From an uncultured Mediterraneibacter sp. (GTDB lineage Bacteria > Bacillota > Clostridia > Lachnospirales > Lachnospiraceae): DNA of 59,503 nucleotides. The notes under the pieces were generated by a model. It saw only the letters and a list, made by a program, of their open reading frames with translations. It was not told the DNA's origin and did no database searches. The position numbers and the translations under genes were made by a program. The stretch spans positions 1 through 59,503 of the forward strand of contig CALWFV010000017.1 of the NCBI GenBank assembly GCA_944377745.1, given 5' to 3'. Within the stretch, counting starts at the first letter, position 1. Each line of letters starts with the position of its first letter. Positions 5,280-59,503 of the stretch are shown one piece after another.

Positions 5280-5320
5280 AGCGCCGGAGCTGAAAGGACA
5301 GAGAACTAGGAGGAAGGACT

Positions 5321-7831
5321 ATGCGAAAAATAAAAGAAAGGACATTTTCCGGAACAAGAAATCCGGAAGAGACAACAAGAGAAGTAAAAAACCGGGATAC
5401 GGCCCGAAGAGCCGCGGCAGAGGGGATGGTTCTCCTGAAAAATGAAGGTCATGTGCTGCCGGTGGATCCGGGAAAAAAGATCGCCCTGTATGGCAGCGGG
5501 GCATCAAAGACAGTCAAGGGAGGCACCGGTTCCGGAGATGTGAATGAGAGGCAAAGTGTCAGCGTCTATGAGGGGCTCAAAGAGGCAGGTTATGTGATCA
5601 CTACGGAGGATTGGATCGCAGATTACGACAGGCGCTATGAGAAGGCGAGGATGGAATGGCGCGACGAGATCCTCAGGAAAGCAGACGGAGCTGAGAAATC
5701 AACGGCATTTTTCAGTGTGTACAGCACTACTCCGTTTATCCGTCCGGACGGGAAAGCTGTGGAAAAGACAGACACAGATCTGGCATTCTATATCTTAAGC
5801 CGGGTCGCGGGAGAGGGGGCGGACCGGAGCGCATCTGCGGGAGATTATTTTCTGACTGATACGGAAGAGAAAGAACTTTCAGACATCTGCGGATATTATA
5901 AGGATGTGATCGTGGTGATCAATACAGGAGGACTTGTGGATCTCTCTTTCATGGATCGACATGAAAATATCCGTGGTCTGATTCAGATGGTGCAGCCGGG
6001 CATGGAAGGAGGAAACGCCTTTGCGGATATCGTGTCCGGGAAAGTTACTCCATCAGGAAAAATGACCGACAGCTGGGCATATCGGTATGAGGATTACCCG
6101 AACGCCGCTACATTTTCACATAACAATGGGAATATACAGACAGAGAAGTATGAGGAAGGGATATATGTCGGCTACAGGTATTTTGACACATTTGACGTTC
6201 CTGTGCGTTACGGTTTCGGCTTCGGTCAGTCTTATACACAGTTCGATATCCAGGTAAAGGAGATCCGGTATGAGACCGGGAAAGCCTCCGGGATTTCAGT
6301 GAGGGTCTCTGTCCAGAACAGTGGAGCCGACTATTCGGGGAAAGAAGTTGTACAGGTTTATATTTCCTGTCCCCAGGAAAAGATGGATAAAGAGTACCGC
6401 CGACTGGGCGCGTTTGAAAAGACAAAGTGCCTCGCACCGGGAGAATCACAGGAATTGGAACTCGAGATCCCTGTCAGTGAACTGGCGTCTTATGATGAAA
6501 ATGAGCCGGGCTGGGTGCTTGAGGCAGGCTCATACGGTCTTTGGATCGGAAACAGTCTTGCATCTTCCGTTCTCTCTGGAGAAGCGGTGCTGGATGAACG
6601 TGTCGTTCTCGTAGAGACAGAGCATATATGCCCGCTCAGAGAGGAATTGACAGAGCAGAGGGCGGATCAGAAAAGTCAGAGAGAAAAATATGAAGCGGCC
6701 AGAGAAAGAGCGGGAGAGACTCTGATCAGGATACGTATCCCGGCGGATTCCCTTGAAGAGGAAACTGTTGTCTACAGAACAAATGCGGAAATTTATTCGA
6801 AAGAAGCCGGAGATTTTGTTGATTCGCTGACCCGCGATCAGCTTGTAGCACTGGCTTCTGGCGATCCGGGGAAGGCTCAGGGCGGCAATCTGGGTGCTGC
6901 AGGTATTTCTGTCCCGGGATCAGCCGGTGAGACCAGCGGGTGCGCACTGGAGGAGGGACTCGCCAGCATCGTTCTTGCAGATGGTCCGGCAGGACTGCGC
7001 CTGATGAAATATTATCATGTGGACGATGGAAAGATTGTTTCCATGCCGTTTCAGTTCAGCCTGGAAGGAGGACTTTTCTGTCCGGATACAGGGGACCTGC
7101 CAGGAGAACGCTGGTATCAGTATTGCACAGCGATCCCGGTGGGAACCCTTCTGGCACAGACATGGGACACAGAGCTTATGAAGGAAGTCGGAAAGATGAT
7201 CGGGAAGGAAATGGAGCTGTTCGGCGTGACACTCTGGCTTGCTCCGGGAATGAATATTCATCGGAACCCGCTCTGCGGAAGAAATTTTGAGTATTATTCT
7301 GAAGATCCTCTTTTGTCAGGTATGATGGCAGCCGCGATCACAGATGGGGTACAGACTGTACCGGGATGTGGTACTACCATCAAGCATTTCGCATGTAATA
7401 ATCAGGAGGACAACCGGATGGGATCTGACAGTGTTGTGTCCGAACGCGCGCTTCGAGAGATTTATCTGAAAGGGTTTGAAACAGCAGTCAGGAAGTCTCA
7501 GCCCATGGCGATCATGACCAGCTACAACCTGATCAACGGCGTGCATGCGGCAAATAATTATGACCTGTGTACAAAGGCTGCAAGGGATGAGTGGGGCTTT
7601 GCCGGACTGATCATGACGGACTGGACCACCACGGAGAATGGAGACAGTTGTACAGCTTCCGGATGTATGCGCGCAGGAAACGACCTGATCATGCCGGGAG
7701 CCCGGAGCGATCGGGAGAACCTTATAAAGGAACTGAATGAGGGGACGCTGAAGATGGAAGAACTGAAGGCGTGCATTTCCAGACTGACAGATACGGTGTG
7801 GAAGTCGAACAGGTATGAAGAAGTGAAATAG
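5321..7831 (+). CDS. Glycoside hydrolase family 3 with permuted domain order (beta-glucosidase-like)
   Basis: This cytosolic GH3 enzyme hydrolyses terminal beta-glycosides. The usual order is reversed. The alpha/beta sandwich domain comes first (AAAEGMVLLKNEGHVLPV near residues 32-49, GGTGSGDVN, the QMVQPGMEGG loop). A fibronectin-III-like domain follows (YGFGFGQSYTQF to about residue 415), then a linker. The TIM barrel comes last (ADGPAGLR, GRNFEYYSEDPLLSG, KHFACNNQEDNR, and the nucleophile motif MTDW with Asp767). Such swapped GH3 enzymes are known from rumen and gut Clostridia. An AGGAGG RBS lies 8 bases before the ATG. With the preceding GH106-like enzyme and the permeases it forms a plausible glycoside-utilisation operon. 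Confidence 0.92.
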   Translation: MRKIKERTFSGTRNPEETTREVKNRDTARRAAAEGMVLLKNEGHVLPVDPGKKIALYGSGASKTVKGGTGSGDVNERQSVSVYEGLKEAGYVITTEDWIADYDRRYEKARMEWRDEILRKADGAEKSTAFFSVYSTTPFIRPDGKAVEKTDTDLAFYILSRVAGEGADRSASAGDYFLTDTEEKELSDICGYYKDVIVVINTGGLVDLSFMDRHENIRGLIQMVQPGMEGGNAFADIVSGKVTPSGKMTDSWAYRYEDYPNAATFSHNNGNIQTEKYEEGIYVGYRYFDTFDVPVRYGFGFGQSYTQFDIQVKEIRYETGKASGISVRVSVQNSGADYSGKEVVQVYISCPQEKMDKEYRRLGAFEKTKCLAPGESQELELEIPVSELASYDENEPGWVLEAGSYGLWIGNSLASSVLSGEAVLDERVVLVETEHICPLREELTEQRADQKSQREKYEAARERAGETLIRIRIPADSLEEETVVYRTNAEIYSKEAGDFVDSLTRDQLVALASGDPGKAQGGNLGAAGISVPGSAGETSGCALEEGLASIVLADGPAGLRLMKYYHVDDGKIVSMPFQFSLEGGLFCPDTGDLPGERWYQYCTAIPVGTLLAQTWDTELMKEVGKMIGKEMELFGVTLWLAPGMNIHRNPLCGRNFEYYSEDPLLSGMMAAAITDGVQTVPGCGTTIKHFACNNQEDNRMGSDSVVSERALREIYLKGFETAVRKSQPMAIMTSYNLINGVHAANNYDLCTKAARDEWGFAGLIMTDWTTTENGDSCTASGCMRAGNDLIMPGARSDRENLIKELNEGTLKMEELKACISRLTDTVWKSNRYEEVK

Positions 7832-7833
7832 CC

Positions 7834-7862
7834 TTGACTGAAAAGAAAACCGCCTTCATAAT
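7834..7862 (+). promoter_or_regulatory. Sigma-70-type promoter candidate for the LysR gene
   Basis: TTGACT at 7834-7839, a 17-base spacer and CATAAT at 7857-7862. It lies just after the GH3 stop codon and about 230 bases before the LysR start. Confidence 0.5.
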
Positions 7863-7927
7863 AGTTTATGGTAAATTACTAAAGTTAAGTTTAGTAATTT
7901 GAGAGTGAGCTGTTGTGGGGCGGTTTT
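7846..7927 (+). promoter_or_regulatory. Nested inverted repeats in the LysR leader
   Basis: An outer 9-bp pair (AAAACCGCC 7846-7854 with GGCGGTTTT 7919-7927) encloses a perfect 11-bp pair (AAATTACTAAA 7873-7883 with TTTAGTAATTT 7890-7900). The inner dyad may be an operator. The outer stem followed by TTTT resembles a weak terminator for the upstream operon or an attenuator for the downstream gene. Confidence 0.5.
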
Positions 7928-8045
7928 ATGTTTATTGGCAGAAAAGATTACAGCAGAGGAGAAAGCATTGATATACGGTGTTACCGGAGGAATTCCGGAA
8001 TATCTGAGCCGGGTGTGTCCGGAGCTTACTGTCGAGAGAATATGA
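7920..8045 (+). pseudogene. Possible remnant of an AAA-type ATPase gene
   Basis: In one frame this stretch reads AEEKALIYGVTGGIPEYLS followed by about 14 more residues before a stop. The GVTGGIPEYL phrase resembles the conserved segment after the ATPase core in the large bacterial/archaeal family of AAA ATPases linked to DUF234-like C-termini. No start, P-loop or other part of such a gene is visible, so this would be a decayed fragment of about 40 codons. The call rests on one recalled motif. Confidence 0.4.
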
Positions 8046-8088
8046 TGTTGGGAGAGTGTAAATGGCGGAATGATAAGGGGGTATCTGC

Positions 8089-8961
8089 GTGGATATAGAA
8101 CAGCTTAAGTATTACACCGAATTATGCCGGGTGAAAAATTTTACGGAGGCAGGGTTCGCCTGCAATCTGAGCCAGAGTGCACTTTCAAAGCAGATCCGCA
8201 AGCTGGAAAAGGAACTGAACGTCACTCTGATCCGGAGGAATACGCGGAAGTTTGAGCTGAGCGAGGAGGGAAAGATCTTTCTGGAGTATGCAGGCGAGGC
8301 GCTGAGCCTGTATGAAAAGATGCTGGAGGACATCCATTTTAAAAAGGAGATCCGCATCGGGAGCATGACCGTACTCTCGCCTTACCATTTTGCAAAGGTC
8401 ATGTCCGCTTTCATGGAACAGTATCCGGACATCGACCTGATCCTGGATGAGCAGACGGCGGATCAGATTCTGGCACATCTGGAGGAGTTTGATTTCGCTA
8501 TCCTGCGGTCGCTTCTGATCACAGATACATCGAAATACAATCTCATCACTCTGTATGACGACTATCTCTGCGCCGTGGTGTATGATTCTCACCCACTGGC
8601 AGGAAGAGAGAGTATCCGGCTGGAGGAATTAAAAGACGAGGAGTTCGTATTCCCCCAGAAGGGGAGCGGCGGGTATGAAGCGTTCTATGACAGCTGCATA
8701 AAGGCGGGATTTACGCCGAACATCCTCTATGAATTTCCCCAGGCAAACACGATCATGAGTTTTGTGGAGGAGAAGATCGGGATCACCATCAATTTTACCA
8801 AAGTATGCCAGGAGTCGGCGGGGAGCGGAGTCCGTATGATCCCTCTGGAGGATGCGCCCCATTTTCCGATCTCACTGGTCTATCCGAAAAATGTGATTCT
8901 GAGCGACACTCAGAAGCTTTTCCTGCGGTTTATCCGTAAGTGGAAGAAAGAGCGGGAGTGA
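8089..8961 (+). CDS. LysR family transcriptional regulator
   Basis: A 290-residue LysR-type regulator with an N-terminal winged helix-turn-helix (MDIEQLKYYTELCRVKNFTEAG, then LSQSALSKQIRKLEKEL) and a C-terminal effector-binding domain with two alpha/beta lobes. The GTG at 8089 is chosen because AAGGGGG lies 8 bases upstream and the protein begins as LysR proteins usually do. It is followed at once by the promoter and T-box of thrS, on the same strand, so it is probably a single-gene unit. Its target is not evident; the neighbouring upstream glycosidase operon is one possibility. Confidence 0.92.
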   Translation: MDIEQLKYYTELCRVKNFTEAGFACNLSQSALSKQIRKLEKELNVTLIRRNTRKFELSEEGKIFLEYAGEALSLYEKMLEDIHFKKEIRIGSMTVLSPYHFAKVMSAFMEQYPDIDLILDEQTADQILAHLEEFDFAILRSLLITDTSKYNLITLYDDYLCAVVYDSHPLAGRESIRLEELKDEEFVFPQKGSGGYEAFYDSCIKAGFTPNILYEFPQANTIMSFVEEKIGITINFTKVCQESAGSGVRMIPLEDAPHFPISLVYPKNVILSDTQKLFLRFIRKWKKERE

Positions 8962-8974
8962 GTGATTTTCCGGC

Positions 8975-9003
8975 TTGACACGTCTGACCGGGTGAGGTAG
9001 AAT
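8975..9003 (+). promoter_or_regulatory. Strong promoter for T-box/thrS
   Basis: A consensus TTGACA at 8975-8980, a 17-base spacer and TAGAAT at 8998-9003, positioned directly before the T-box leader. Confidence 0.85.
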
Positions 9004-9009
9004 AGCCAG

Positions 9010-9290
9010 TGTAGACAAAGCGTTGATGAGGACAGTAGGCTGCCGGTGCATCTCAGAGAGGAAACCATGTGCTGTGAGGTTTCTGTTGTGCGGCTGACTG
9101 AAGACCACCTCGGAGCGGCCTTAATACGGCACGGTGATCCCGTTATCATCACATGAATTAAGATGGTTTTCCATGGAAGACAAGCAGGGTGGGACCGCGG
9201 ATCCTTATCCGTCCCTGCGGGGAGTGTTTCCGTGCGGCTATAGATTCAGATATAAGAGGCATTCCGAAAAGGGATGCTTTTTTCTTTCCA
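9010..9290 (+). promoter_or_regulatory. T-box riboswitch controlling thrS
   Basis: This leader binds uncharged tRNA and lets transcription continue into the synthetase gene when the cognate aminoacyl-tRNA is short. The defining T-box sequence AGGGTGGGACCGCGG is present at 9186-9200. It can pair in the antiterminator and is followed by an intrinsic terminator (GCATTCC 9259-9265, GGGATGC 9271-9277, T6 at 9278-9283). A threonine-type ACC triplet lies in the upstream stem region (GAAGACCACC near 9101-9110) and is a candidate specifier; the exact specifier was not folded. Gene context (thrS) supports tRNA-Thr. From 9291 to the thrS start I see nothing except the ribosome binding site. Confidence 0.95.
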
Positions 9291-9420
9291 ATGCTTAAGC
9301 GCATGCCGCATAACGCATAATCGCAGAGACAGGGGGATATGCGGATCAGGCGGTGACGGCAGAGAAAGTGTGCACGGACAGAGATGAAACAGAGATTCAG
9401 AGAGAAAGGAAGAAAAGAAC

Positions 9421-11346
9421 ATGAAGATCACATTAAAAGACGGCTCTTTCAAAGAGTATGACCAGCCCATGAGCGTGTATGACATCGCAAAGGATATCAG
9501 CGAGGGACTTGCCAGAGCAGCGACCTCCGGAGAGATCGATGGAGAGATCGTGGATCTGAGAACGGTTGTGGATAAGGACTGCGAGCTCAATATCCTTACA
9601 TTTAACGACGAGAAAGGAAAGGGTGCGTTCCGCCATACAGCGTCCCATATCATGGCGCAGGCGATCAAGAGACTGTACCCGGATACAAAACTTGCCATCG
9701 GACCGTCCATCGCAGACGGATTCTACTATGACGTGGACAGAGAGACTCCGCTCACCACAGAGGACCTGGAGAAGATCGAGGCGGAGATGAAGAAGATCGT
9801 CAAGGAAAATCTCGAGATCAAACAGCACACCATGCCGAGAAACGAGGCAATCGACTACTTTAAGGAAAAGAATGAGCCGTATAAGGTGGAACTGATCGAG
9901 GATCTTCCGGAGGACGAGACGATCAGTTTCTACTCACAGGGAGAGTTCACAGACCTTTGTGCAGGACCGCATCTTATGACTACAAAGCCGGTGAAGGCAT
10001 TTAAACTGACCAGCCTTGCAGGTGCTTACTGGAGAGGCAGTGAGAAGAACAAGATGCTCCAGAGGATTTACGGCACTGCATTCCCGAAGAAAGCGGAACT
10101 GGATGAGTACCTGACCATGATGGAAGAGGCGAAGAAGCGCGACCACAGAAAGCTGGGGAAAGAACTGGGACTGTTCATGATGCGTGAGGAGGGACCGGGA
10201 TTCCCGTTCTTCCTGCCAAACGGAATGGTGCTCAAGAATACGCTTCTTGATTACTGGAGAGAGATCCACAGAAGAGCAGGGTATGTGGAGATTTCCACAC
10301 CGATCATGCTGAGCCGTCACCTCTGGGAGACGTCCGGACACTGGGATCACTACAAAGAGAATATGTACACGACAGTGATCGACGATGTGGATTTCGCGAT
10401 CAAACCGATGAACTGCCCGGGCGGTATCCTTGTATACGAATCAGAGCCCCGTTCCTACCGTGATCTGCCGATCCGCATGGGCGAGCTCGGACTGGTACAC
10501 CGCCATGAGAAATCCGGCCAGCTCCACGGTCTGATGAGAGTGCGCTGCTTTACTCAGGACGATGCTCATATCTTTATGATGCCGGAGCAGATCAAAGATG
10601 AGATCAAAGGCGTTGTAAAGCTGATCGATGAAGTTTACAGCCTGTTCGGGTTCAAATATCATGTAGAACTTTCCACACGTCCGGAAGACAGCATGGGAAG
10701 TGACGAGGACTGGGAGATGGCGACAGATGCGCTCTGCAACGCTCTCGACGACATCGGACTGCCCTATGTGGTAAATGAAGGCGACGGGGCGTTCTACGGA
10801 CCGAAGATCGACTTCCATCTGGAGGATTCCATCGGAAGGACATGGCAGTGCGGAACGATCCAGCTTGACTTCCAGCTTCCGCTGCGCTTTAACCTGGAGT
10901 ACACCGGAGCGGACGGAGAGAAGCACAGACCGATCATGATCCACAGGGTCGTATTCGGATCCATCGAGAGATTCATCGGTATCCTGATAGAGCACTTCGC
11001 GGGCGCATTCCCGACATGGCTTGCCCCTGTACAGGTGAAAGTGCTTCCAATCTCTGACAAGCATATGGAGTACGGACAGAAAGTCCTGGGTGCACTCAAT
11101 GAGGCGGGAATCCGTGCCGAGATCGATACCCGCGCAGAGAAGATCGGATATAAGATCCGTGAGGCTCAGATGAAGAAGATCCCGTACATGCTTGTTGTGG
11201 GAGCAAAGGAAGAAGAAGACAATAAAGTTTCTGTCAGAAGCCGTTTTGCAGGAGACGAAGGTCAGAAGGGGCTGGATGAGTTCATTGTTCAGATCAAAGA
11301 GGAGATCGCTGCAAGAGTCCTTCGGGAGACGACCAAAGAAGGCTGA
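9421..11346 (+). CDS. thrS: Threonine-tRNA ligase
   Basis: This cytosolic synthetase charges tRNA-Thr with threonine using ATP. The 641 residues match the usual bacterial length. Seen in order: an N-terminal TGS domain (MKITLKDGSFKEYDQ), an editing domain with HTASHIMAQAIKRLYP, and the class II catalytic core with MNCPGG (zinc-binding Cys), the HRHEKSGQLHGLMRVR motif 2 region and FTQDDAHIF. Next come the motif 3 region around MIHRVVFGSIERFIGILIEH and a C-terminal anticodon-binding domain. AGAAAGGAAG precedes the ATG. It is controlled by the T-box directly upstream and followed at 52 bases by a deacetylase gene, with no obvious terminator between. Confidence 0.98.
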   Translation: MKITLKDGSFKEYDQPMSVYDIAKDISEGLARAATSGEIDGEIVDLRTVVDKDCELNILTFNDEKGKGAFRHTASHIMAQAIKRLYPDTKLAIGPSIADGFYYDVDRETPLTTEDLEKIEAEMKKIVKENLEIKQHTMPRNEAIDYFKEKNEPYKVELIEDLPEDETISFYSQGEFTDLCAGPHLMTTKPVKAFKLTSLAGAYWRGSEKNKMLQRIYGTAFPKKAELDEYLTMMEEAKKRDHRKLGKELGLFMMREEGPGFPFFLPNGMVLKNTLLDYWREIHRRAGYVEISTPIMLSRHLWETSGHWDHYKENMYTTVIDDVDFAIKPMNCPGGILVYESEPRSYRDLPIRMGELGLVHRHEKSGQLHGLMRVRCFTQDDAHIFMMPEQIKDEIKGVVKLIDEVYSLFGFKYHVELSTRPEDSMGSDEDWEMATDALCNALDDIGLPYVVNEGDGAFYGPKIDFHLEDSIGRTWQCGTIQLDFQLPLRFNLEYTGADGEKHRPIMIHRVVFGSIERFIGILIEHFAGAFPTWLAPVQVKVLPISDKHMEYGQKVLGALNEAGIRAEIDTRAEKIGYKIREAQMKKIPYMLVVGAKEEEDNKVSVRSRFAGDEGQKGLDEFIVQIKEEIAARVLRETTKEG

Positions 11347-11398
11347 GAAAAGAAAATTCAGATAAGAAATAGAGGGGAAATAAAGCAGAGGTATCGCA

Positions 11399-12433
11399 AT
11401 GGAGGAGAGGGGAAAGAAAAATACCCGCCGGCGCGCGAAGCAGCGCCGGCGCAGGAATGCTGTGAGGAGACGCCGCAGAAACGCTGCAGTGAAACGCAAC
11501 AGAAAGAGGACGAGAATCGTCGTGCTGTGTATCCTTCTGGCTGTTGTACTCCTTCTGATTGCAGGCGTCGCGGCTGCTGTGCGCATCTTTACGAAAAGTG
11601 GCTCTGAGGAGGAAAGCTCGGAGAATACTGCGAAGGACATCACCATAGAGAATGTGCAGAAGAACGGCGGTAATGGCGTCATTTCATTTGAAGATAAACA
11701 GACGGAGAAGACGCAGACAAAAGAGACTCAGACAGCAAAAAATACAGCCACAGAGGAACATCACAAGACAAACGGACTGGCGATCTGCATGTATCATTAT
11801 GTGTATGATGAGTCGGATCCTCCGGACGACCTGAACAATAATTATATCGAGGTCCACGCACTGGAAGAGGAGATAGAGTATCTCGTGGAAAACGACTACT
11901 ATTTCCCCACATGGGAGGAAGTGCGGCAGTATGTGGAAGGAGATCTGCTCCTTCCCGAGAAGAGTGTCGTCCTGACCTTTGACGATGGTGCGAAAAGCTT
12001 CCTTGACCTGGGAATCCCGGTGTTTGAGAAATATCAGGTGCCGGCGACCTCCTTCCTTATCACCAGCAATGACGGGGAAAATAAGGTGAAAGAGTATCAG
12101 AGCGATTATGTGACCTTTCAGTCCCACTCGGACAATATGCACCGTGCCGGCGGAAATATCGGTCACGGGGGGATTTTTACGGCAATGAGCCATGACGACG
12201 CTGTGGCGGATCTGAAAAAGTCCATTGAGATCTGCGGTCATGGCGACGCCTTCGCCTATCCCTACGGCGACTATACGGATGACTGCCGGACCGCGGTGGA
12301 GGATGCAGGGTTTACCTGCGCAGTGACAACGGAAAACCGGAGGGCGGAAGTGGGAGATGACCCGCTGCTGCTCCCCAGGGTCCGGATGAGCCTTGGGCAG
12401 TCGCTGGAGAGTTTTATCGCGCTGGTGGAGTGA
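11399..12433 (+). CDS. Membrane-anchored polysaccharide deacetylase (CE4/PgaB-like)
   Basis: A 344-residue cell-surface enzyme that probably removes acetyl groups from a glycan. The N-terminus is extremely rich in Arg and Lys (about residues 1-39) and is followed by one membrane span (about residues 40-62) and a low-complexity Thr/Lys/Glu/Gln linker. The catalytic NodB-like domain starts at CMYHYV and contains the metal and base motif LTFDDG, a second motif with SHSDNMHR and FAYPYGDY near the end. It sits after thrS on the same strand, and its stop codon abuts a long inverted repeat shared with the convergent ABC exporter. The substrate (peptidoglycan or a surface polymer) cannot be read from the sequence. 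Confidence 0.88.
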   Translation: MEERGKKNTRRRAKQRRRRNAVRRRRRNAAVKRNRKRTRIVVLCILLAVVLLLIAGVAAAVRIFTKSGSEEESSENTAKDITIENVQKNGGNGVISFEDKQTEKTQTKETQTAKNTATEEHHKTNGLAICMYHYVYDESDPPDDLNNNYIEVHALEEEIEYLVENDYYFPTWEEVRQYVEGDLLLPEKSVVLTFDDGAKSFLDLGIPVFEKYQVPATSFLITSNDGENKVKEYQSDYVTFQSHSDNMHRAGGNIGHGGIFTAMSHDDAVADLKKSIEICGHGDAFAYPYGDYTDDCRTAVEDAGFTCAVTTENRRAEVGDDPLLLPRVRMSLGQSLESFIALVE

Positions 12434-12434
12434 T

Positions 12435-12818
12435 GGAGGATCCGGCGCGGGGGTGAGGGCGGAGATTACGTCCGAAAACTGCGGGGAACCTTTTTCAAAC
12501 CCGTTTTCGGAGAGAGCCGGTATGTGCTCCGGTTCCGTTCCAGAATCAAAGAAATAGTAGAACTCCGGGAATTCAGTTAAATACGACCCGGAAAATGGCA
12601 CAACTCGCTACGCTCAGACAATGCCATTTCCCGGATCAACACTGAATTCCCGGAGTTAACTATTTCTAATCGATTCTTCCAAAGTCACCGGAATCCCATA
12701 CCGGCTCTCTCCGAAAGGTTTTCGAAATCGTCCCCGCGGTTTTCTGCTGTACTCCGCCCGGCAGTCCCTGCGGCACATCCTCTCCCCCGCGGACACCTCC
12801 CCACCCCGCCAGATCCGG
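12435..12818. repeat. Giant imperfect inverted repeat filling a convergent junction
   Basis: The whole gap between two convergent genes folds back on itself. The left arm (about 12435-12600) and right arm (about 12622-12818) align over their length with small gaps, around a loop near 12601-12621 that contains ACTCGCTACGCTCAG. Matching blocks include CGGAGAGAGCCGGTATG (12508-12524) with CATACCGGCTCTCTCCG on the right arm, GAAATAG with CTATTTC, CTCCGGGAATTCAGT with ACTGAATTCCCGGAG, and AATGGCA with TGCCATT. No open frame of note lies inside. It could end transcription in both directions; an old palindromic mobile element is the alternative. Confidence 0.85.
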
Positions 12819-14540
12819 TCACATATTGTAGTATCGCGCGTAAATTCCTCCTTTTGCCAGCAGGCTCTCGTGAGTTCCTCTCTCGGCGATTCCGTCTTCG
12901 GTGATGACGATGATCTCGTCGGCGTTCTTGATAGTAGAGAGCCGGTGTGCGATGGTGATGGTCGTGCGGTCTTTGGAAAGCTCTTCCAGGCTCTGCTGGA
13001 TCCAGCGTTCACTTTCATTGTCCAGTGCGCTGGTGGCTTCGTCCAGGATCAGGATCGGGGGATTTTTCAGGAACACACGGGCGATGGAGATCCGCTGTTT
13101 CTGTCCTCCGGAGAGCCGGGTTCCGCGCTCGCCGACAAAGGTATCGTAACCGTCTGGCAGTTCTTGGATAAAGTCATGAATGTTGGCGCGTTTTGCGGCT
13201 TCAACGATCTCTTCCATGGAGGCTCCGGGTTTGCCGTAAGCGATATTTTCCCGGATTGTTCCGCTGAACAGATAGACATCCTGCTGTACCATGCCGATCT
13301 GGCTGCGGAGACTTTTCAACTTAAGCGTGCGGATGTCCTGCCCGTCGATGGTGATCCTTCCTCCTGTCACATCATAGAACCGGGGCAGGAGAGAACAGAT
13401 CGTAGTCTTGCCGCTTCCGGACGGTCCCACCAGGGCAATGGATCGGCCCGCCGGAATTTCAAAGGAAACATGGGAGAGGACAGGGGTGTCATCGTCACTG
13501 TAGTGGAAAGAAACATCTTCGTAGCAGACTCTTCCATGCACATCGGTCAAGTCTTTTGCATCCGGAGCATCCTCGATTTCCGGCTCTGTCTCCATCACAT
13601 CAAGGAAACGGCGAAAGCCGGAAAGTCCTTTCTGGATCGTCTCGATCAGTTCCACCAGGATCTGGATCGGGCTGATGAAGATTCCGATGTAGAGGGCATA
13701 CATGGCGAGATCTGCCGGAGCCATCAGCCCCTGTGCGATCAGATAACCGCCGTATACCAGTGTGACAAGATACATCATCCCCTGGAAGAACAGGTTCCAT
13801 CCCATGAAGCTTCCCATACAGTTGTAATTGTTATCCTTTGAGACGAGAAAAGCATGGTTGCTCTTTTTAAATTTTTCCCGTTCGATATCTTCATTCGCGA
13901 AGGACTGTACCACACGGATGCCGGCAAGTGTATCCTGAAGGCTGGCGTTCACATCCCCGATCTTCCGGCGGTTCTCCATAAATGTTTCCTGCATTCTCCC
14001 GTTCTGACGGAAGGAGAAAATGAACATGCACAGGACAAGGACAACAAGCGGAAGAGCCAGTTTCCAGTTGATCATAAACAGGAAAATGAAAGATCCGATG
14101 ATCTTTACTACGGAGATGAAAAGATTTTCCGGGCCGTGATGCGCAAACTCGGCGATGTCAAACAGGTCCGATACAAGCTTGCTCATCATCTGACCCGAGT
14201 TATTCTGACTGTAATAGGAAAAGGACAGCTTTTCGTAATGGTCAAAGAGCTGCTGGCGCATATCCCGTTCCATGTTTGCCCCCATCATATGTCCCTGATA
14301 GCTGACGTAATATTTGCAGAGACTCTGTATGACGTACATGACAAGAAGTCCTGCCGCTATGAGGGGAAGCGTCTCCAGGATAGCGCTGCTGTCCCGGGTG
14401 AAGAGTGTGTTGGTCGCTGTCCGCAGGATCTGGGGGTAAGCCAGATCTGCAAGGCTGATAAATGTGGCGCACAGCAGGTCGATGAAAAAGACTGCTTTAT
14501 ATGGCCCATAATAATGAATAAACTTTTTTATCGTTTGCAT
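12819..14540 (-). CDS. ABC transporter, fused permease and ATPase (exporter)
   Basis: A 573-residue half-transporter of the MsbA/LmrA type, acting as a dimer to export a lipid, drug or peptide. Residues about 1-300 form six membrane spans. The ATPase domain shows Walker A GPSGSGKTT, the signature LSGGQKQR, Walker B ILILDEATSALD and the switch His in TIAHRLSTI. The start is preceded by AGGAGG on the minus strand. It appears to be a single-gene unit with its own promoter (14568-14596), diverging from the dihydrouridine synthase and converging on the deacetylase. The substrate is unknown. Confidence 0.93.
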   Translation of the reverse strand: MQTIKKFIHYYGPYKAVFFIDLLCATFISLADLAYPQILRTATNTLFTRDSSAILETLPLIAAGLLVMYVIQSLCKYYVSYQGHMMGANMERDMRQQLFDHYEKLSFSYYSQNNSGQMMSKLVSDLFDIAEFAHHGPENLFISVVKIIGSFIFLFMINWKLALPLVVLVLCMFIFSFRQNGRMQETFMENRRKIGDVNASLQDTLAGIRVVQSFANEDIEREKFKKSNHAFLVSKDNNYNCMGSFMGWNLFFQGMMYLVTLVYGGYLIAQGLMAPADLAMYALYIGIFISPIQILVELIETIQKGLSGFRRFLDVMETEPEIEDAPDAKDLTDVHGRVCYEDVSFHYSDDDTPVLSHVSFEIPAGRSIALVGPSGSGKTTICSLLPRFYDVTGGRITIDGQDIRTLKLKSLRSQIGMVQQDVYLFSGTIRENIAYGKPGASMEEIVEAAKRANIHDFIQELPDGYDTFVGERGTRLSGGQKQRISIARVFLKNPPILILDEATSALDNESERWIQQSLEELSKDRTTITIAHRLSTIKNADEIIVITEDGIAERGTHESLLAKGGIYARYYNM

Positions 14541-54439: not shown

Positions 54440-54805
54440 ATGGCAAATGATCATGGAGAACAGATAAGAATCGTACAGGAAACGGTAGCCGGAAAAGAAA
54501 TCACATTCGCGCATGTGATGGGAGGTCCGGCTCCGATCATATATCAGAAGCTGGGACTGAACCCGCAGGTGGATTACAGTTCTTCGGCGATCGGGATCAT
54601 GAACATGACTCCGCCGGAATCCGCGGTGATCGCCTCTGATATCGCGGTCAAGAGCGGAAACGTCTATCTCGGTTTTGCCGACCGGTTTACCGGGACGCTG
54701 ATCATCACCGGGGAGATCTCGGACGTTACTTCCGCGTTGACCGAGATCGTGGAGTATTTCCGTGATACTCTCGGATATGTGGTCTGCAGTATTACAAAGA
54801 GATAG
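54440..54805 (+). CDS. EutS/PduU-like microcompartment shell protein 1
   Basis: A 121-residue circularly permuted BMC-domain protein, a hexamer-forming tile of a bacterial microcompartment shell. It aligns with enterobacterial EutS over its length: IVQETVAGKEITFAHVMG at the start, AIGIMNMTPPESAVIASDIAVKSGNVYLGFADRFTGTLIITG, and a final GYVVCSITKR. The Gly that bends the E. coli EutS hexamer lies in a region that here reads SSSAIG, so the tile may be flat; this is inference. AGAGAGGGT precedes the start. It begins a three-gene run with a second shell protein (11 bases later) and EutP, with no cargo enzymes in view. Confidence 0.92.
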   Translation: MANDHGEQIRIVQETVAGKEITFAHVMGGPAPIIYQKLGLNPQVDYSSSAIGIMNMTPPESAVIASDIAVKSGNVYLGFADRFTGTLIITGEISDVTSALTEIVEYFRDTLGYVVCSITKR

Positions 54806-54816
54806 GAAGTGCTGTC

Positions 54817-55245
54817 ATGGCGAAGATGACGAAAGAGGAATTTCTGGAAACGCTGTTCCACGATGATTATGAGAATCTGAAGGGAAAAAAACTGCGTATG
54901 ACCCGCGTCCGCGTACCGGGAAAGGAAGTGTGTCTGGCGCATATTATAAATCCGTCTGAGAAGTGTATCTATCACAATCTTGCTCTGCATATCGGTGTAC
55001 ACGAGGGGGAGGACCACACAGGGGAGTCTGTCGGTCTGATCCGTTTCACGCCCTGGGAGTCGGTCGTGGTCGCTGCGGACGTCGCTGTAAAGAGCGCACA
55101 TGTTGAGATTGGTTTCATGGACCGCTTCTGCGGTTCCCTGATCATTACAGGGGGACTTTCCGAGGTCCAGACCGCAGTGGAAGAGGTGGTCAGATTTTTT
55201 GATCAGGTACTGGGATTCAAGACCTGTGAGATCCACAGGAGCTGA
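54817..55245 (+). CDS. EutS/PduU-like microcompartment shell protein 2
   Basis: A second circularly permuted BMC protein, 142 residues. It has an extra N-terminal helix (about 1-25, MTKEEFLETLFHDDYENLKG) and a longer loop with His and Cys (NPSEKCIYHNLALHIGVHEGEDH). The BMC core then follows (VGLIRFTPWESVVVAADVAVKSAHVEIGFMDRFCGSLIITGG), with the end GFKTCEIHRS. The longer first part distinguishes it from shell protein 1, so the two probably fill different positions or form a mixed hexamer. AGGAAG precedes the start. EutP follows 22 bases later. Confidence 0.9.
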   Translation: MAKMTKEEFLETLFHDDYENLKGKKLRMTRVRVPGKEVCLAHIINPSEKCIYHNLALHIGVHEGEDHTGESVGLIRFTPWESVVVAADVAVKSAHVEIGFMDRFCGSLIITGGLSEVQTAVEEVVRFFDQVLGFKTCEIHRS

Positions 55246-55267
55246 AAATACACAGGCAGGTTAAAGA

Positions 55268-55795
55268 ATGAAAAAACTATTTCTGATGGGAAGAAGTGAG
55301 GCCGGAAAGACTTCTCTGACGCAGGCGCTGAAGGGAGAAGAGCTTCATTATATTAAAACTCAATATACAAACACAGCGGATGACACCATTGATTCGCCCG
55401 GGGAGTACGCCGAGTCCAAGCGGTTCAGCGTGGGACTTGCCTGTTTCTCCTTCGAGGCTGACGTGGTGGCGATCGTTCAGGCGGCGGACGAACCGTTCAA
55501 TCTGTTTGGTGACAGCAGCCGCTCGTTTATCCAGCGTCCGCTGATCGGAATCATCACCAAGATCGATTCCCCTTACGCCAACATCCCAATGGTCAGACAG
55601 TGGCTCATCAATGCAGGATGTGAGCGTATTTTCATGGTGAATAACGTGACCCGGGAAGGCGTTGATGAACTGATGGACTATCTGGCGGAGGATCCGCCGT
55701 ATCTGACGCTGGAGCAGGCGAAATTCAAGCAGAGACTGGGACTCAATGAATGGGATCCTCTTCCGGAGGGAGTAGAGTATCCTGCGGGAGTCTGA
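55268..55795 (+). CDS. eutP: EutP/PduV-like microcompartment GTPase-like protein
   Basis: A 175-residue P-loop protein of the EutP/PduV family, linked to microcompartment positioning or acetate-kinase-like activity in different reports. Seen: the P-loop GRSEAGKTS (residues 8-16), KTQYTNTADDTIDSPGEYAE (the family's D-[ST]-PGE motif), a GTP-specificity-like TKID and EGVDELMDYL. The final ~25 residues (EQAKFKQRLGLNEWDPLPEGVEYPAGV) are an extension. It closes the orphan eutS-like/eutS-like/eutP cluster. No ethanolamine or propanediol enzymes lie within the window, so its compartment must be encoded elsewhere or be of another kind. Confidence 0.9.
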   Translation: MKKLFLMGRSEAGKTSLTQALKGEELHYIKTQYTNTADDTIDSPGEYAESKRFSVGLACFSFEADVVAIVQAADEPFNLFGDSSRSFIQRPLIGIITKIDSPYANIPMVRQWLINAGCERIFMVNNVTREGVDELMDYLAEDPPYLTLEQAKFKQRLGLNEWDPLPEGVEYPAGV

Positions 55796-55841: not shown

Positions 55842-55869
55842 TTGATTAATAAGAATGTTGTGATATAAT
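55842..55869 (+). promoter_or_regulatory. Extended -10 promoter before the AT-rich module
   Basis: TTGATT at 55842-55847, a 16-base spacer and TATAAT at 55864-55869, preceded by TGA (extended -10 TGn). Confidence 0.65.
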
Positions 55870-56034: not shown

Positions 56035-56052
56035 GGATAATATCTAATTATC
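56035..56052 (+). promoter_or_regulatory. 18-bp dyad element, copy 1 (before the ATP-grasp gene)
   Basis: GGATAATATCTAATTATC is identical to the copy before the ATPase gene and has the same orientation relative to its gene. It contains GATAAT and ATTATC half-sites separated by five bases. It ends 46 bases before the ATP-grasp start. Confidence 0.7.
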
Positions 56053-56098
56053 AATTTTATTAAGAAGTATATTGGTTTACTGACGGGAGGAAAGGTAC

Positions 56099-57091
56099 AT
56101 GATTGACAACAAAGTAGTTTTAATAACAGATGAAAACGAAAAAATAGATCATGCAGATATATCTAATAGAAATTTAGAGGGTAATAATGAATATTCAACG
56201 AAAATGATATCAAATGCAATTAAATCTATATGTAAAGAGTTTGAAATTTATACAAGTGTTCCTCTGTTCCTACATGATATAGAAAAATATAAAGAAAACA
56301 TTATATTTCCCATGAAATACGGGTATAATGCACCGGATTCTAAAAGCATAATCCCCGGGATTTGTGAAGGTGCCGGTCTAAAATATGTAGGGGCAGATGA
56401 TTATGCTCATATGATATGTAATGATAAATATACGGCCAAAATGTTTGCTAGAGAATTTGGTATAAAAACAGCCCCTGCTCTTCTCTTCAGGAATCCAGAA
56501 AATTTTGCTACCGTTAAAGAAAACCTGCATTTATTAAGGCCTCCTTTTGTAATAAAACCGAATTTTGGGGGAGGATCAACTGGCATCTCTGAGCATAATA
56601 TATGTGCTGATTTTGATTCAGCAGCTGATCTTCTGATAAAATTATATTCTTATCATAAAATGCCAATTCTAGCTGAGGAATATATTCCAGGTGAGGAGGT
56701 TGAATTAATTCTTGTAGGAACCAAAAAAGAAATTACTTTCAGTGAAGAGGTTCAGCTGATAATGGATAAAAAGGAGTTTTTCGATTATGAAATTTGGGGA
56801 TATGAAACCAAAAAGATAGATGATACAAATATAGATTTTAAAATGAGTTCATTCATATCTAAGAACGATACTAATAAAATACATAATTTATTTAAAGCAT
56901 TCGATAAAATTGAATTTATGCGTGTCGATGGACGTATGTATCAGGGAGAATTTCATTTAATCGAATTATCACCGGATTGTTATCTGGGAGATGATTGCGC
57001 CTTTTATTATGCATTTGGAAACAAGGGTTATTCTCTCTCCCAGATGTTTGAATATTTAATAATCAACAGCTTAAATCACTATCAACTGTGA
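56099..57091 (+). CDS. ATP-grasp enzyme resembling D-alanine-D-alanine ligase
   Basis: A 330-residue enzyme that probably forms a peptide or amide bond via an acyl-phosphate. The N-terminal part has the ligase-like block PMKYGYNAPDSKSIIPGICEGAGLKYVGADDYAHMICNDKYTAK (about residues 75-118). The ATP-grasp region has RPPFVIKPNFGGGSTGIS and ILAEEYIPGEEVELILVG. Near the end the metal-binding block reads RVDGRMYQGEFHLIELSPDCYLGDD; the usual E-x-N-x-x-P is here ELSP, without the Asn. The gene is AT-rich with AT-ending codons unlike its neighbours, which suggests transfer. GGGAGGAAAGG precedes the ATG. It converges on, and overlaps by 29 bases, the STAND ATPase gene and shares an upstream dyad with it. 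Confidence 0.8.
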   Translation: MIDNKVVLITDENEKIDHADISNRNLEGNNEYSTKMISNAIKSICKEFEIYTSVPLFLHDIEKYKENIIFPMKYGYNAPDSKSIIPGICEGAGLKYVGADDYAHMICNDKYTAKMFAREFGIKTAPALLFRNPENFATVKENLHLLRPPFVIKPNFGGGSTGISEHNICADFDSAADLLIKLYSYHKMPILAEEYIPGEEVELILVGTKKEITFSEEVQLIMDKKEFFDYEIWGYETKKIDDTNIDFKMSSFISKNDTNKIHNLFKAFDKIEFMRVDGRMYQGEFHLIELSPDCYLGDDCAFYYAFGNKGYSLSQMFEYLIINSLNHYQL

Positions 57092-59393
57092 ATTCCCAAT
57101 AGCCCAGGAAATCTGCTCTAAACGGGAATTGAGCATAAAAATAGTCTGTTTTTATAAGGTGATTCATACCAGAAGCCAAAAATTTAGTTGATTCTTTCGT
57201 CTTTGGGGAATTAACTAAATTTAGGATCTGGTCGTAATAGTATTGCCTTTTATCATTATTATGCTTGAATAAATCATAATAGTAGTATAGATTCTGATAT
57301 ATTATATGTAAAAATTCCTCATATTGAAAATCAAGATAATTGCTCTCTTCAATGATATTTGCTATACGAGTGGCTTCGCTAAAATTATTGGTAAGACAAT
57401 AGAAAATTAATAGATTGGCGTTTACTATTAATTTTTCATACCTACTCACACACAGTAATAATGCATTTCTTAAATTCTTTTCTGTTGTATTAGAGTAAGT
57501 GTTGTCAAGTAATTCCAACACAGACTTATTGTTCAAAATATAGCATAATGAAAGTTCTCGACTATCTAGTTTAATAGCATCTTCTATATACTGCCTTGAC
57601 TGAGCAATATCTCCGATATAAGCTGTTATCATTGAGAGGGAAAGATACACCGCAGCCATATCATGATACATTTTTTTGCTTTTAAATCTATCAAGAGCCT
57701 GGCCATATAATTGTCTACATTCTTCAGTGTCGTCAGATAATTCGGCATAATTTCGCAAGAGATAGGCATACTCTATGTATTGGGGATATAGCTCATTATT
57801 AATAAGTTTTTCCCCGTATTTTTTTGCACTTTTAGCGGGTAATAATTTCATCTTTAAATATAAAAAACAAATTTCACATATTAGTTTTAGTCGACTTCCT
57901 TCTTGTAATCCTTGCACCAGATCACATAACGCAACATGTGCTGCCATTGTTTCCTGAAGAGAATAAATTTGAGCCTGTAATGCAATATGATAGGCATTGG
58001 TGTCATCATATATCAAATCAAGATTTTTTTGCGCAATGTTTCCCATTTTTTTATAGAGACAAAGCTCTACTATAGTTTGTGTTAAAGAATATATGCCATA
58101 GAATCCATTTGCACTGGAATGTAATATTTGATTTCTGAAAAGATCTAATTTTTCAATAATCAAATCCGGATATTTCATATCCAAAACAAATTCTTTTATT
58201 CTAGGTAGTAGAATTAAAAGATCTTGATCAGAAAACCGAAGATATAATGATAATAGTTTTTCTATTGATATCTTTTTAGTCTCGAGATTATCATTGTAGT
58301 AATTCTTCAAAGTTATATATGCACAGTATAAAATGGGAGATTGCATATACATTTGTAATGCATCGATTATAGAATCATGCTTAATTTTTATAATATCATT
58401 TTCTTTTATTAGTATCTTTTTCTGGCATAATATATTTATCAAGCTTTTTAATTCTTCAAAATCCAAACGGATTTCATTATCATTTTCGATGACCATAACA
58501 GCCAAATCATCATATTCTATAGGCGCATCATTTAAAAAAATGATAAATAATATATACTTTTCCTTTTTAGATAGTTTTTTTATATTTGTATCAATATTAC
58601 TTTCACTCTCATTACTATGCTCATTTGCCAATATTATCTCCATTAAATTACCGTTACTCTTCTCGTATAGCATACGTACTTCTTCAATGTCGATGTTTAT
58701 ATCTGCTGGAGCCAGATTTTTAGCAATTAAGAAATCCATTTTTTCTATTTTGTAGCATGATATATCAGAGCATATTTCTCTAAACTCTTTATATTGGTTT
58801 TCAAAATGACTGTAATTACTATTTGTAAGAGTATATTCAAATATAAAAGTCCGATTCTCCGATTCATATATGATATCTTTTATCAGCTCCAAAGACTGTG
58901 TATCTACATTTTGCATATTTTCAATATCTATTATAATGTCATTTTTTTTCAACACGTATATCAAATAGTCTTTTTTTCTTACAACTGATGCATCCTCGGC
59001 TGGCTCTGATAAAGGCTCCATATCTGATAACCCCGATTTGCTTTTAAATATGCTGAAAAAAACTCTCCTTAGACTCTTAATACTTCGCATGTTTTGCTGT
59101 GCAGGAGATAAAACTGAATCAAACATTTTATTTTTGGCATAATATGTAACCGTCTTGTATAATGCATTGAAATACTGTAGATTTTCAATTGTTTCGACGG
59201 AACTTTTGCTGATTTTGACTGACAAAATTGCATGAGTAAGTAGTGAACTTTGTGAAAGCTTTTTAACAAATCCGGTTTTTCCTACCCCACTGATCCCAGT
59301 TAAATAAATAATTTTATTATTGTCTGCGGGCTTATTTAGAATCTCTAATATCTCGTTTGTTTCTATTTCTCTATCTAATAATTGCTCAGCCAT
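57063..59393 (-). CDS. STAND/AAA ATPase with helical-repeat C-terminus
   Basis: A 776-residue protein. The N-terminal ATPase (about residues 1-300) opens with DREIETNEILEILN, a P-loop GISGVGKT (33-40) and a Walker B-like IIIDIENMQNVD with Asp156. This resembles the AAA_16/STAND signalling ATPases. The remaining ~450 residues are helical, with TPR-like patterns (for example AYLLRNYAELSDDTEECRQLYGQALDRFKSKKMYHDMAAVYLSLS). I see no LuxR-type DNA-binding domain, no nuclease and no TIR domain, so the output is unclear. Codon use is strongly AT-ending. Its partner is the convergent ATP-grasp gene with the same upstream dyad. Regulator, defence sensor or peptide-maturation partner are all possible. 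Confidence 0.75.
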   Translation of the reverse strand: MAEQLLDREIETNEILEILNKPADNNKIIYLTGISGVGKTGFVKKLSQSSLLTHAILSVKISKSSVETIENLQYFNALYKTVTYYAKNKMFDSVLSPAQQNMRSIKSLRRVFFSIFKSKSGLSDMEPLSEPAEDASVVRKKDYLIYVLKKNDIIIDIENMQNVDTQSLELIKDIIYESENRTFIFEYTLTNSNYSHFENQYKEFREICSDISCYKIEKMDFLIAKNLAPADINIDIEEVRMLYEKSNGNLMEIILANEHSNESESNIDTNIKKLSKKEKYILFIIFLNDAPIEYDDLAVMVIENDNEIRLDFEELKSLINILCQKKILIKENDIIKIKHDSIIDALQMYMQSPILYCAYITLKNYYNDNLETKKISIEKLLSLYLRFSDQDLLILLPRIKEFVLDMKYPDLIIEKLDLFRNQILHSSANGFYGIYSLTQTIVELCLYKKMGNIAQKNLDLIYDDTNAYHIALQAQIYSLQETMAAHVALCDLVQGLQEGSRLKLICEICFLYLKMKLLPAKSAKKYGEKLINNELYPQYIEYAYLLRNYAELSDDTEECRQLYGQALDRFKSKKMYHDMAAVYLSLSMITAYIGDIAQSRQYIEDAIKLDSRELSLCYILNNKSVLELLDNTYSNTTEKNLRNALLLCVSRYEKLIVNANLLIFYCLTNNFSEATRIANIIEESNYLDFQYEEFLHIIYQNLYYYYDLFKHNNDKRQYYYDQILNLVNSPKTKESTKFLASGMNHLIKTDYFYAQFPFRADFLGYWEFTVDSDLSC

Positions 59394-59426
59394 TTTTATT
59401 TCCCTATTTCAACCTAAATTTAATTG

Positions 59427-59444
59427 GATAATTAGATATTATCC
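59427..59444 (-). promoter_or_regulatory. 18-bp dyad element, copy 2 (before the STAND ATPase gene)
   Basis: Read on the minus strand it is GGATAATATCTAATTATC, identical to the copy at 56035-56052. It ends 33 bases before the ATPase start. In the last ~60 bases of the window I see nothing else. Confidence 0.7.
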
Positions 59445-59503
59445 GTTTATCTGTTAATCGAATACATAGAAACAAATCCGGAAATCAAGTTTATGATGAT
59501 AGT

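Follow-up and report, generated by a model that had tools for sequence, protein, structure and literature searches.

An ATP-grasp/STAND-like gene pair as the probable cargo of an invertible and exchangeable two-gene cassette in Mediterraneibacter

We analysed a 59,503-nucleotide contig from an uncultured Mediterraneibacter sp. (CALWFV010000017.1, hereafter the window) and focused on two facing genes, one encoding an ATP-grasp ligase and the other a STAND-like P-loop ATPase. The original prediction had singled them out as an AT-rich convergent pair, and both parts of that description were confirmed: the open reading frames (ORFs) of 330 residues on the forward strand and 776 residues on the reverse strand are convergent, with 3' ends that overlap by 29 bp, and the GC content of the segment is well below that of its flanks (Table 1). 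The limits given for the pair, 56035-59444, turned out to coincide exactly with the outer ends of an 18-bp perfect inverted repeat (56035-56052 and 59427-59444), and the full sites are 19-bp dyads with equal centres. This inverted repeat pair is the key feature of the locus. It had gone unmentioned, as had the recombinase family and the inversion and exchange described below. We propose that the gene pair is probably the cargo of an invertible, exchangeable two-gene cassette.

The ATP-grasp protein matches the D-ala D-ala ligase C-terminus family (PF07478, 43.6 bits for a cut-off of 24), and its best solved match is 3r23 (E = 7e-24). It fails the Ddl family model TIGR01205 (80.2 bits for a cut-off of 245.65). 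The ATP-grasp domain is thus common to Ddl and the window protein, which differs from Ddl in lying beside a STAND gene and in lacking the metal-binding Asn, as had been correctly noticed at the outset: where Ddl has E-x-N, the window protein and its relatives at loci L013 and L014 have E-L-S, L015 has E-L-T and L016 has E-F-A. The earlier description of the second protein as a STAND ATPase with a TPR-like C-terminus holds for the ORF and for a visible Walker A motif (GISGVGKT); the domain assignment itself is a below-threshold call, since AAA_16 (E = 2e-5) and TPR_12 (E = 0.019) are both under the Pfam cut-offs. No convincing solved relative of this protein was found (best E = 0.03), and an AlphaFold2 model computed from the window and L013 sequences alone reached a predicted local distance difference test score (pLDDT) of 35.9 and was not used. 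Directly upstream of the cassette lie two BMC-domain shell genes and an EutP/PduV GTPase gene (window 54440-55795), downstream of which the cassette appears to have been inserted.

The same gene pair is present in Candidatus Onthovicinus (L013), the sole locus obtained from the genome-collection scan with the ATP-grasp protein, with amino acid identities of 94% and 88%. Nucleotide identity between the two copies (88.9%) spans the segment from repeat to repeat and ends there, and the flanks are unrelated. L013 carries a perfect 27-bp repeat, with a tyrosine recombinase gene about 235 bp outside it. Within the Mediterraneibacter genome, the 18-bp repeat has two exact copies only and four copies with 3 mismatches. 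More generally, we compared the 22 segments having both sites, not all of which are independent (three Streptococcus cassettes are on one platform, and so are L141 and L143). The 7-nt site centre is identical within the pair in 22/22 segments, with 18 kinds of centre between loci, while the arms GATAA/TTATC are nearly constant. Centres are shared between the window and L013, among the Streptococcus cassettes and between L141 and L143. Such a layout, in which the arms are bound and the centre is exchanged, is expected of tyrosine recombinase sites. In this set, L015, L145 and L150 were counted together with L143, L142 and L149, respectively; recombinase loci with one or no site found were left out, as was L104, a gapped scaffold with several site copies. 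The L104 region (3600-10900) has several copies of one site, a repeated recombinase end, and glycosyltransferase, P-loop and radical-SAM-like genes; its repeated layout of site and recombinase end is what would be expected if both orientations had been assembled.

Sequence comparison between close relatives shows both inversion and exchange of cassettes. The Aliarcobacter cryaerophilus plasmids pACRY43158 (L143) and pM830MA (L015) have flanks that are 100% (985 nt) and 99.8% (3653 nt) identical, and between the sites the two carry a 3458-bp segment, 99.9% identical, in opposite orientations. In A. faecis pAFAEC (L141), the flanks are those of A. cryaerophilus (97.6% over 1044 nt including the recombinase, and 90.8% over 1561 nt), the cassette is a different one, and homology breaks at the sites. 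The same is seen in the S. salivarius plasmids L142 and L144, where flanks that are 98-99% identical enclose different cassettes between the same sites; L149 and L150 were compared by annotation, recombinase and site position. In genome G051 (L057) the cassette sits between the recombinase and the next gene. Genome G034 (L058) has an orphan family recombinase (7861-8808) and the next gene, with no cassette and no site by the pattern used, which suggests that both have either been lost or are yet to be acquired.

Actual reversal was thus observed in L143 versus L015, and for the window itself the sign of both orientations is the contig-end signature only. Four pairs among the 47 contig tips of the window assembly share exactly 77 nt (one further pair shares 74 nt), and this exact sharing points to assembly with k = 77. 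Measured from the inner edge of the right repeat (59427), the window contig runs on for exactly 77 nt before it stops. The assembly graph would branch at this contig end if the right flank were also joined in reads to the opposite end of the segment, and the position of the end suggests that both orientations are present in the reads. At L131, the contig end is a 77-nt inverted copy of the locus's own left junction. Across 52 recombinase loci, 34 had a site within 400 nt, and 12 of these 34 had a contig tip at most 200 nt away on the side of the site, as against 1 on the opposite side; the count includes L138-L140 from three Xer-level genomes, with L139 among the 34.

The recombinases that adjoin the segment in L013 and in the Aliarcobacter relatives are 43% identical and belong to an XerC/D-like family, with matches to the solved structures of XerA (E = 7e-49) and XerD (E = 4e-48). 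All four family recombinases tested are below the NCBIfam XerC and XerD cut-offs, and all four fail the integron integrase model (103-110 bits for a cut-off of 265). At E <= 1e-40, the family was found in 10 of 58 genomes of the genus, own genome included (one of the ten being a fragment, G010, and one a broken copy, G008). The search of the order at E <= 1e-70 returned 38 of 392 genomes, of which 35 were kept as family after G254, G239 and G185 (244-251 bits) were removed as housekeeping XerC/XerD, inferred by score. By the same score rule, a phylum draw with 26 matching genomes among 398 comes down to 1/398, all matches but that in the own genome having 239-252 bits. In the own genome, the family recombinase is at the tip of contig C67; it is 46% identical to that of L013 and has the site GGATAATATGCAGTTATC 110 nt away, marking a second cassette platform (L028, 1-1071) whose cassette is not on that contig. 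Three phage-collection records, which are without annotation, have a similar recombinase. Beside the cassette locus of L051, three recombinase-type genes lie in tandem between 20-bp palindromic inverted repeats (9413-12887), resembling a 'recombinase in trio' element, and the streptococcal platform adjoins a PezAT toxin-antitoxin pair in the L142, L144 and L149 megaplasmids (about 8259-9537).

A platform of flippable, swappable two-gene cassettes is well supported. In the mechanism that we propose, an XerC/D-like tyrosine recombinase, usually encoded just outside the segment in relatives, would act on the two inverted sites. Recombination between both sites of one copy would flip the segment, and recombination with another copy of the same centre would swap cassettes. 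The inverted orientation of the sites means that simple excision of the cassette is not possible.

Table 1. Features of the window around the putative cassette (positions in the window) and gene pairs carried by the window and related loci (locus names).
Feature	Position or loci	Strand	Remarks
Whole putative invertible segment (cassette), 3410 bp	56035-59444		Terminal inverted repeats; repeat-to-repeat identity with L013; GC 0.30 versus 0.47 in flanks
Left putative recombination site GGATAATATCTAATTATCA, centre TATCTAA	56035-56053	+	First 18 bp match right site; centre same as L013
Right putative recombination site, inverted, GGATAATATCTAATTATCC	59426-59444	-	Inverted counterpart of left site
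ATP-grasp ligase gene	56099-57091	+	330 residues; Ddl-like domain; E-L-S replaces E-x-N; start 45 nt inside left site
STAND-like P-loop ATPase gene	57063-59393	-	776 residues; TPR-like C-terminus (below Pfam cut-offs); start 32 nt inside right site
Promoter-like sequence outside segment, toward ATP-grasp gene	55842-55869	+	TTGATT, 16 nt, TATAAT; TG before second hexamer; 10/12 matches
Last 77 nt of contig, repeat inner edge to contig end	59427-59503		Contig ends at 59503; fits k = 77
ATP-grasp facing P-loop/TPR protein	Window, L013, L014, L143, L054, L128		
ATP-grasp alone or with radical SAM, facing pentapeptide repeats	L051, L057, L135		L057 ATP-grasp by similarity
SIR2-STALD facing TIR (Thoeris-type)	L101, L130, L131		
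SHMT facing NB-ARC or TPR protein	L136, L144, L137		L137 by 37% identity to L136
Glycosyltransferase facing P-loop protein	L117		
Spermidine-synthase-like facing 288-residue protein without family	L060		Scanned via its relative in L125
Polyprenyl synthetase facing 330-residue protein	L142		
GNAT facing methyltransferase	L141		Homologous pair in Streptococcus L149 (42% and 29%)
Other ATP-grasp-like genes	L103, L109		

Cargo genes were assigned by Pfam and PADLOC, with some domain calls below the Pfam cut-offs (for example, those of L103 and the P-loop call of L117). In 21 of the 22 segments, the outermost genes point into the segment, the exception being L054 with a radical-SAM gene that faces outward. 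Across cassettes, an enzyme often faces a sensor- or effector-like protein, the Thoeris-type TIR/SIR2-STALD pair being one case, and the kinds of pair recur across phyla (Table 1). When 11 cargo labels were placed on a recombinase tree of 28 sequences, 18 label changes were counted for a shuffled mean of 18.9 (as low in 58 of 200 shuffles), indicating that recombinase relationships do not predict the cargo; the labels assigned to L055, L061, L104, L121 and L122 derive from cassettes that are incomplete or complex, and the L060 and L121 recombinases are pieces.

The convergent pair of ATP-grasp and P-loop/TPR genes recurs in L013, L014, L015/L143, L054, L062 and L128, that is, from Bacillota to Campylobacterota, which bears out the suspicion in the original prediction that the pairing is real and undescribed. 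Pairing is not universal among ATP-grasp homologues. Of 392 genomes of the order, ten have a match at E <= 1e-30; in four (own, L061, L062 and L065) the homologue is associated with a site, with a recombinase or with a STAND gene that faces it, and six (L063, L064 and L066-L069) have no site and no STAND-profile match within the 15-16 kb fetched. Among 99 genomes from the genus, family and order, only that of the window contained the STAND protein, and a viral_contigs scan with it gave no matches. Its tblastn search of plasmids returned one record, A. cryaerophilus pACRY43158 (23% identity, E = 1e-4), in which an ATP-grasp homologue (36%) faces the STAND relative and a recombinase adjoins; a further locus of this type is found on pM830MA, where the STAND gene is broken into two parts. 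The ATP-grasp protein matched 79 plasmid records and 5 phage records, of which H2, H3 and H4 were inspected closely. In H4 (Sinorhizobium, L016), the ATP-grasp homologue belongs to a biosynthetic cluster that has no STAND gene. In the Aliarcobacter cassette L014, a YbaK/EbsC-type gene (aminoacyl-tRNA editing domain, 11558-11983) precedes and overlaps the ATP-grasp gene, a hint of a tRNA or aminoacyl link.

What the pair may do is suggested by its sister cassettes. Those of L101, L130 and L131 match ThsA models in PADLOC at E = 4e-182, 1e-103 and 2e-84, respectively. In Thoeris, an enzyme (TIR) and an effector (SIR2-STALD) work together. By analogy, the ATP-grasp enzyme may make or modify something that is sensed by the STAND ATPase, with anti-phage or other conflict immunity as the most likely setting. 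A defence role had been put forward among the possibilities in the original prediction. The Thoeris-type genes of the sister cassettes make it plausible, and as a reasoned guess by analogy we give it an even chance. The window pair has neither a SIR2-STALD nor a TIR domain, which among these loci define L101, L130 and L131 only, and PADLOC assigned 0 families to its ATP-grasp protein and only mad8, weakly (E = 6e-4), to its STAND protein. Alternatively, the cargo may be non-immune and serve metabolic or surface-modifying diversity, the ATP-grasp enzyme acting as a ligase of peptides or of the cell wall under regulation by the STAND protein. This would suit the Ddl-like family of the enzyme, the glycosyltransferase, polyprenyl synthetase, SHMT, GNAT and methyltransferase domains among the other cargo, and PADLOC results that are none or weak for scanned cargo other than the Thoeris-type pairs. 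The occupation of the same slot by Thoeris-type genes in three loci and the recurrence of P-loop/STAND-type partners with different enzymes speak against this explanation, which we consider possible though rather doubtful.

With regard to expression, the first in-frame start codon inside the site is at most 54 nt from it for 35 of 42 genes, and RefSeq places three of the seven remaining starts at the site itself (both L143 genes and the L141 methyltransferase). Because starts so close to the sites leave little room for an internal promoter, transcription should enter from the flanking DNA, and the cassette genes look promoterless. Flipping would then exchange flanking promoters between the two genes. 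A two-hexamer scan was significant (p <= 0.05) for 5 of 35 flanks (L013, L054, L060, L117 and L137), never for both flanks of one locus, and a -10 scan at p <= 0.1 gave 2/17 recombinase-side and 2/16 distal flanks. A consensus scan of the window region yielded 27 promoter-like hits for 23.2 +/- 3.9 in shuffles, hence the candidate upstream of the ATP-grasp gene (Table 1) is weak.

The position of the starts and the one-sided two-hexamer hits would also agree with a plain two-state switch, in which a single external promoter drives the gene that happens to face it, ATP-grasp or STAND, and cassette exchange is secondary. Such alternation has a precedent in Ureaplasma, where inversion at mba/UU376 and UU172/UU171 leads to alternate expression of two neighbouring genes (PMC3047005). 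However, the -10 scan shows no clear one-sidedness, and weak promoter-like hits are found on both window flanks. Thoeris-type pairs, moreover, are generally known to need both proteins, which argues against a strict either/or; we consider this switch unlikely.

Two other explanations of the repeats were rejected. Palindromic sites just upstream of both starts, with no recombinase seen beside the window copy, could be operators shared by both genes for a regulator, with no recombination at the locus, but homology stops at the sites, inversion and exchange occur there in relatives, and an operator needs no centres that differ between loci yet match within a pair, which together make this very improbable. 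A transposon moved by a DDE transposase in trans with two passenger genes would have the perfect terminal repeats and the unrelated flanks of the window and L013, but is hardly credible given that no target-site duplication was seen by eye in those flanks, that transposition does not explain a segment reversed (Aliarcobacter) and replaced (Aliarcobacter, Streptococcus) between fixed flanks, and that a tyrosine recombinase adjoins the repeats, which have the form of dyad sites whose centres are specific to each pair.

Several observations weigh against the interpretation of the pair as cargo of an exchangeable cassette platform with links to immunity. No recombinase lies beside the window segment, the left side being without one and the right flank just 59 nt long, and the family recombinase of this genome, on C67, is beside a site of different centre. 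A contig continuing the right flank was not found in the assembly, in which the smallest contig seen is 3002 bp, so that shorter ones may be missing. The family also looks concentrated, with 35 of 392 order genomes as against the own genome only in the 398-genome phylum draw. In Aliarcobacter and Streptococcus, exchange could also have occurred by homologous recombination through the near-identical flanks; this route could not move a cassette between the window and L013. Finally, the TIR proteins of L101, L130 and L131 match PDC-S66 first and ThsB second, and outside the Thoeris-type pairs the scanned cargo has absent or weak PADLOC matches, as stated above.

The machinery itself, a tyrosine recombinase with inverted dyad sites, is already known. 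Phase variation by tyrosine recombinases (fim type, C. difficile RecV) has the same short inverted repeats, site-specific inversion and outside-promoter logic. Unlike those inversions, the cassettes hold whole enzyme/effector-like pairs that are replaced between strains and species, and their recombinase is a separate XerC/D-like family. Integrons likewise have a tyrosine recombinase platform with exchangeable, apparently promoterless cassettes. In contrast to an integron array, a single cassette here holds two convergent genes and is flanked by double-strand dyad sites in inverted orientation, and the recombinases are far below the integron integrase model. In engineered recombinase-mediated cassette exchange, inverted lox or FRT sites allow a segment to be flipped or replaced without excision, and matching centres are required; compared with it, the cassette system would be a natural one, its mechanism being inferred from comparison. 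Thoeris (ThsA with SIR2-STALD, ThsB with TIR) is carried by segments of this type in L101, L130 and L131, where the two genes converge and are bounded by sites, and the window pair shares no domain with it. We know of no described natural system with exchange of two-gene pairs like these. No description of such cassettes was found in searches of an open-access library (bioRxiv and most subscription journals lie outside this scope), and the terms 'ATP-grasp' and 'invertible' are absent from the available portion of PMC7159879.

Our most far-reaching proposal, held tentatively and at slightly less than even chance, is that of a cross-phylum platform trading two-gene immune modules, with Thoeris as one cargo, with flipping that rebalances the partners, and with the ATP-grasp/STAND pair as a new two-component signalling defence in which a product or modification made by the ligase triggers or restrains the STAND protein. 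If true, the recombinase locus would mark swappable two-gene modules in Clostridia-type genomes, streptococcal megaplasmids and Aliarcobacter plasmids, and would represent naturally occurring cassette exchange distinct from both integrons and simple phase switches. Looking between the sites would then be a cheap route to new defence pairs, and the platform a possible path for bacteria trading immune genes. In addition, Thoeris-type genes on a flippable segment would raise the testable question of why an immune system is turned around.

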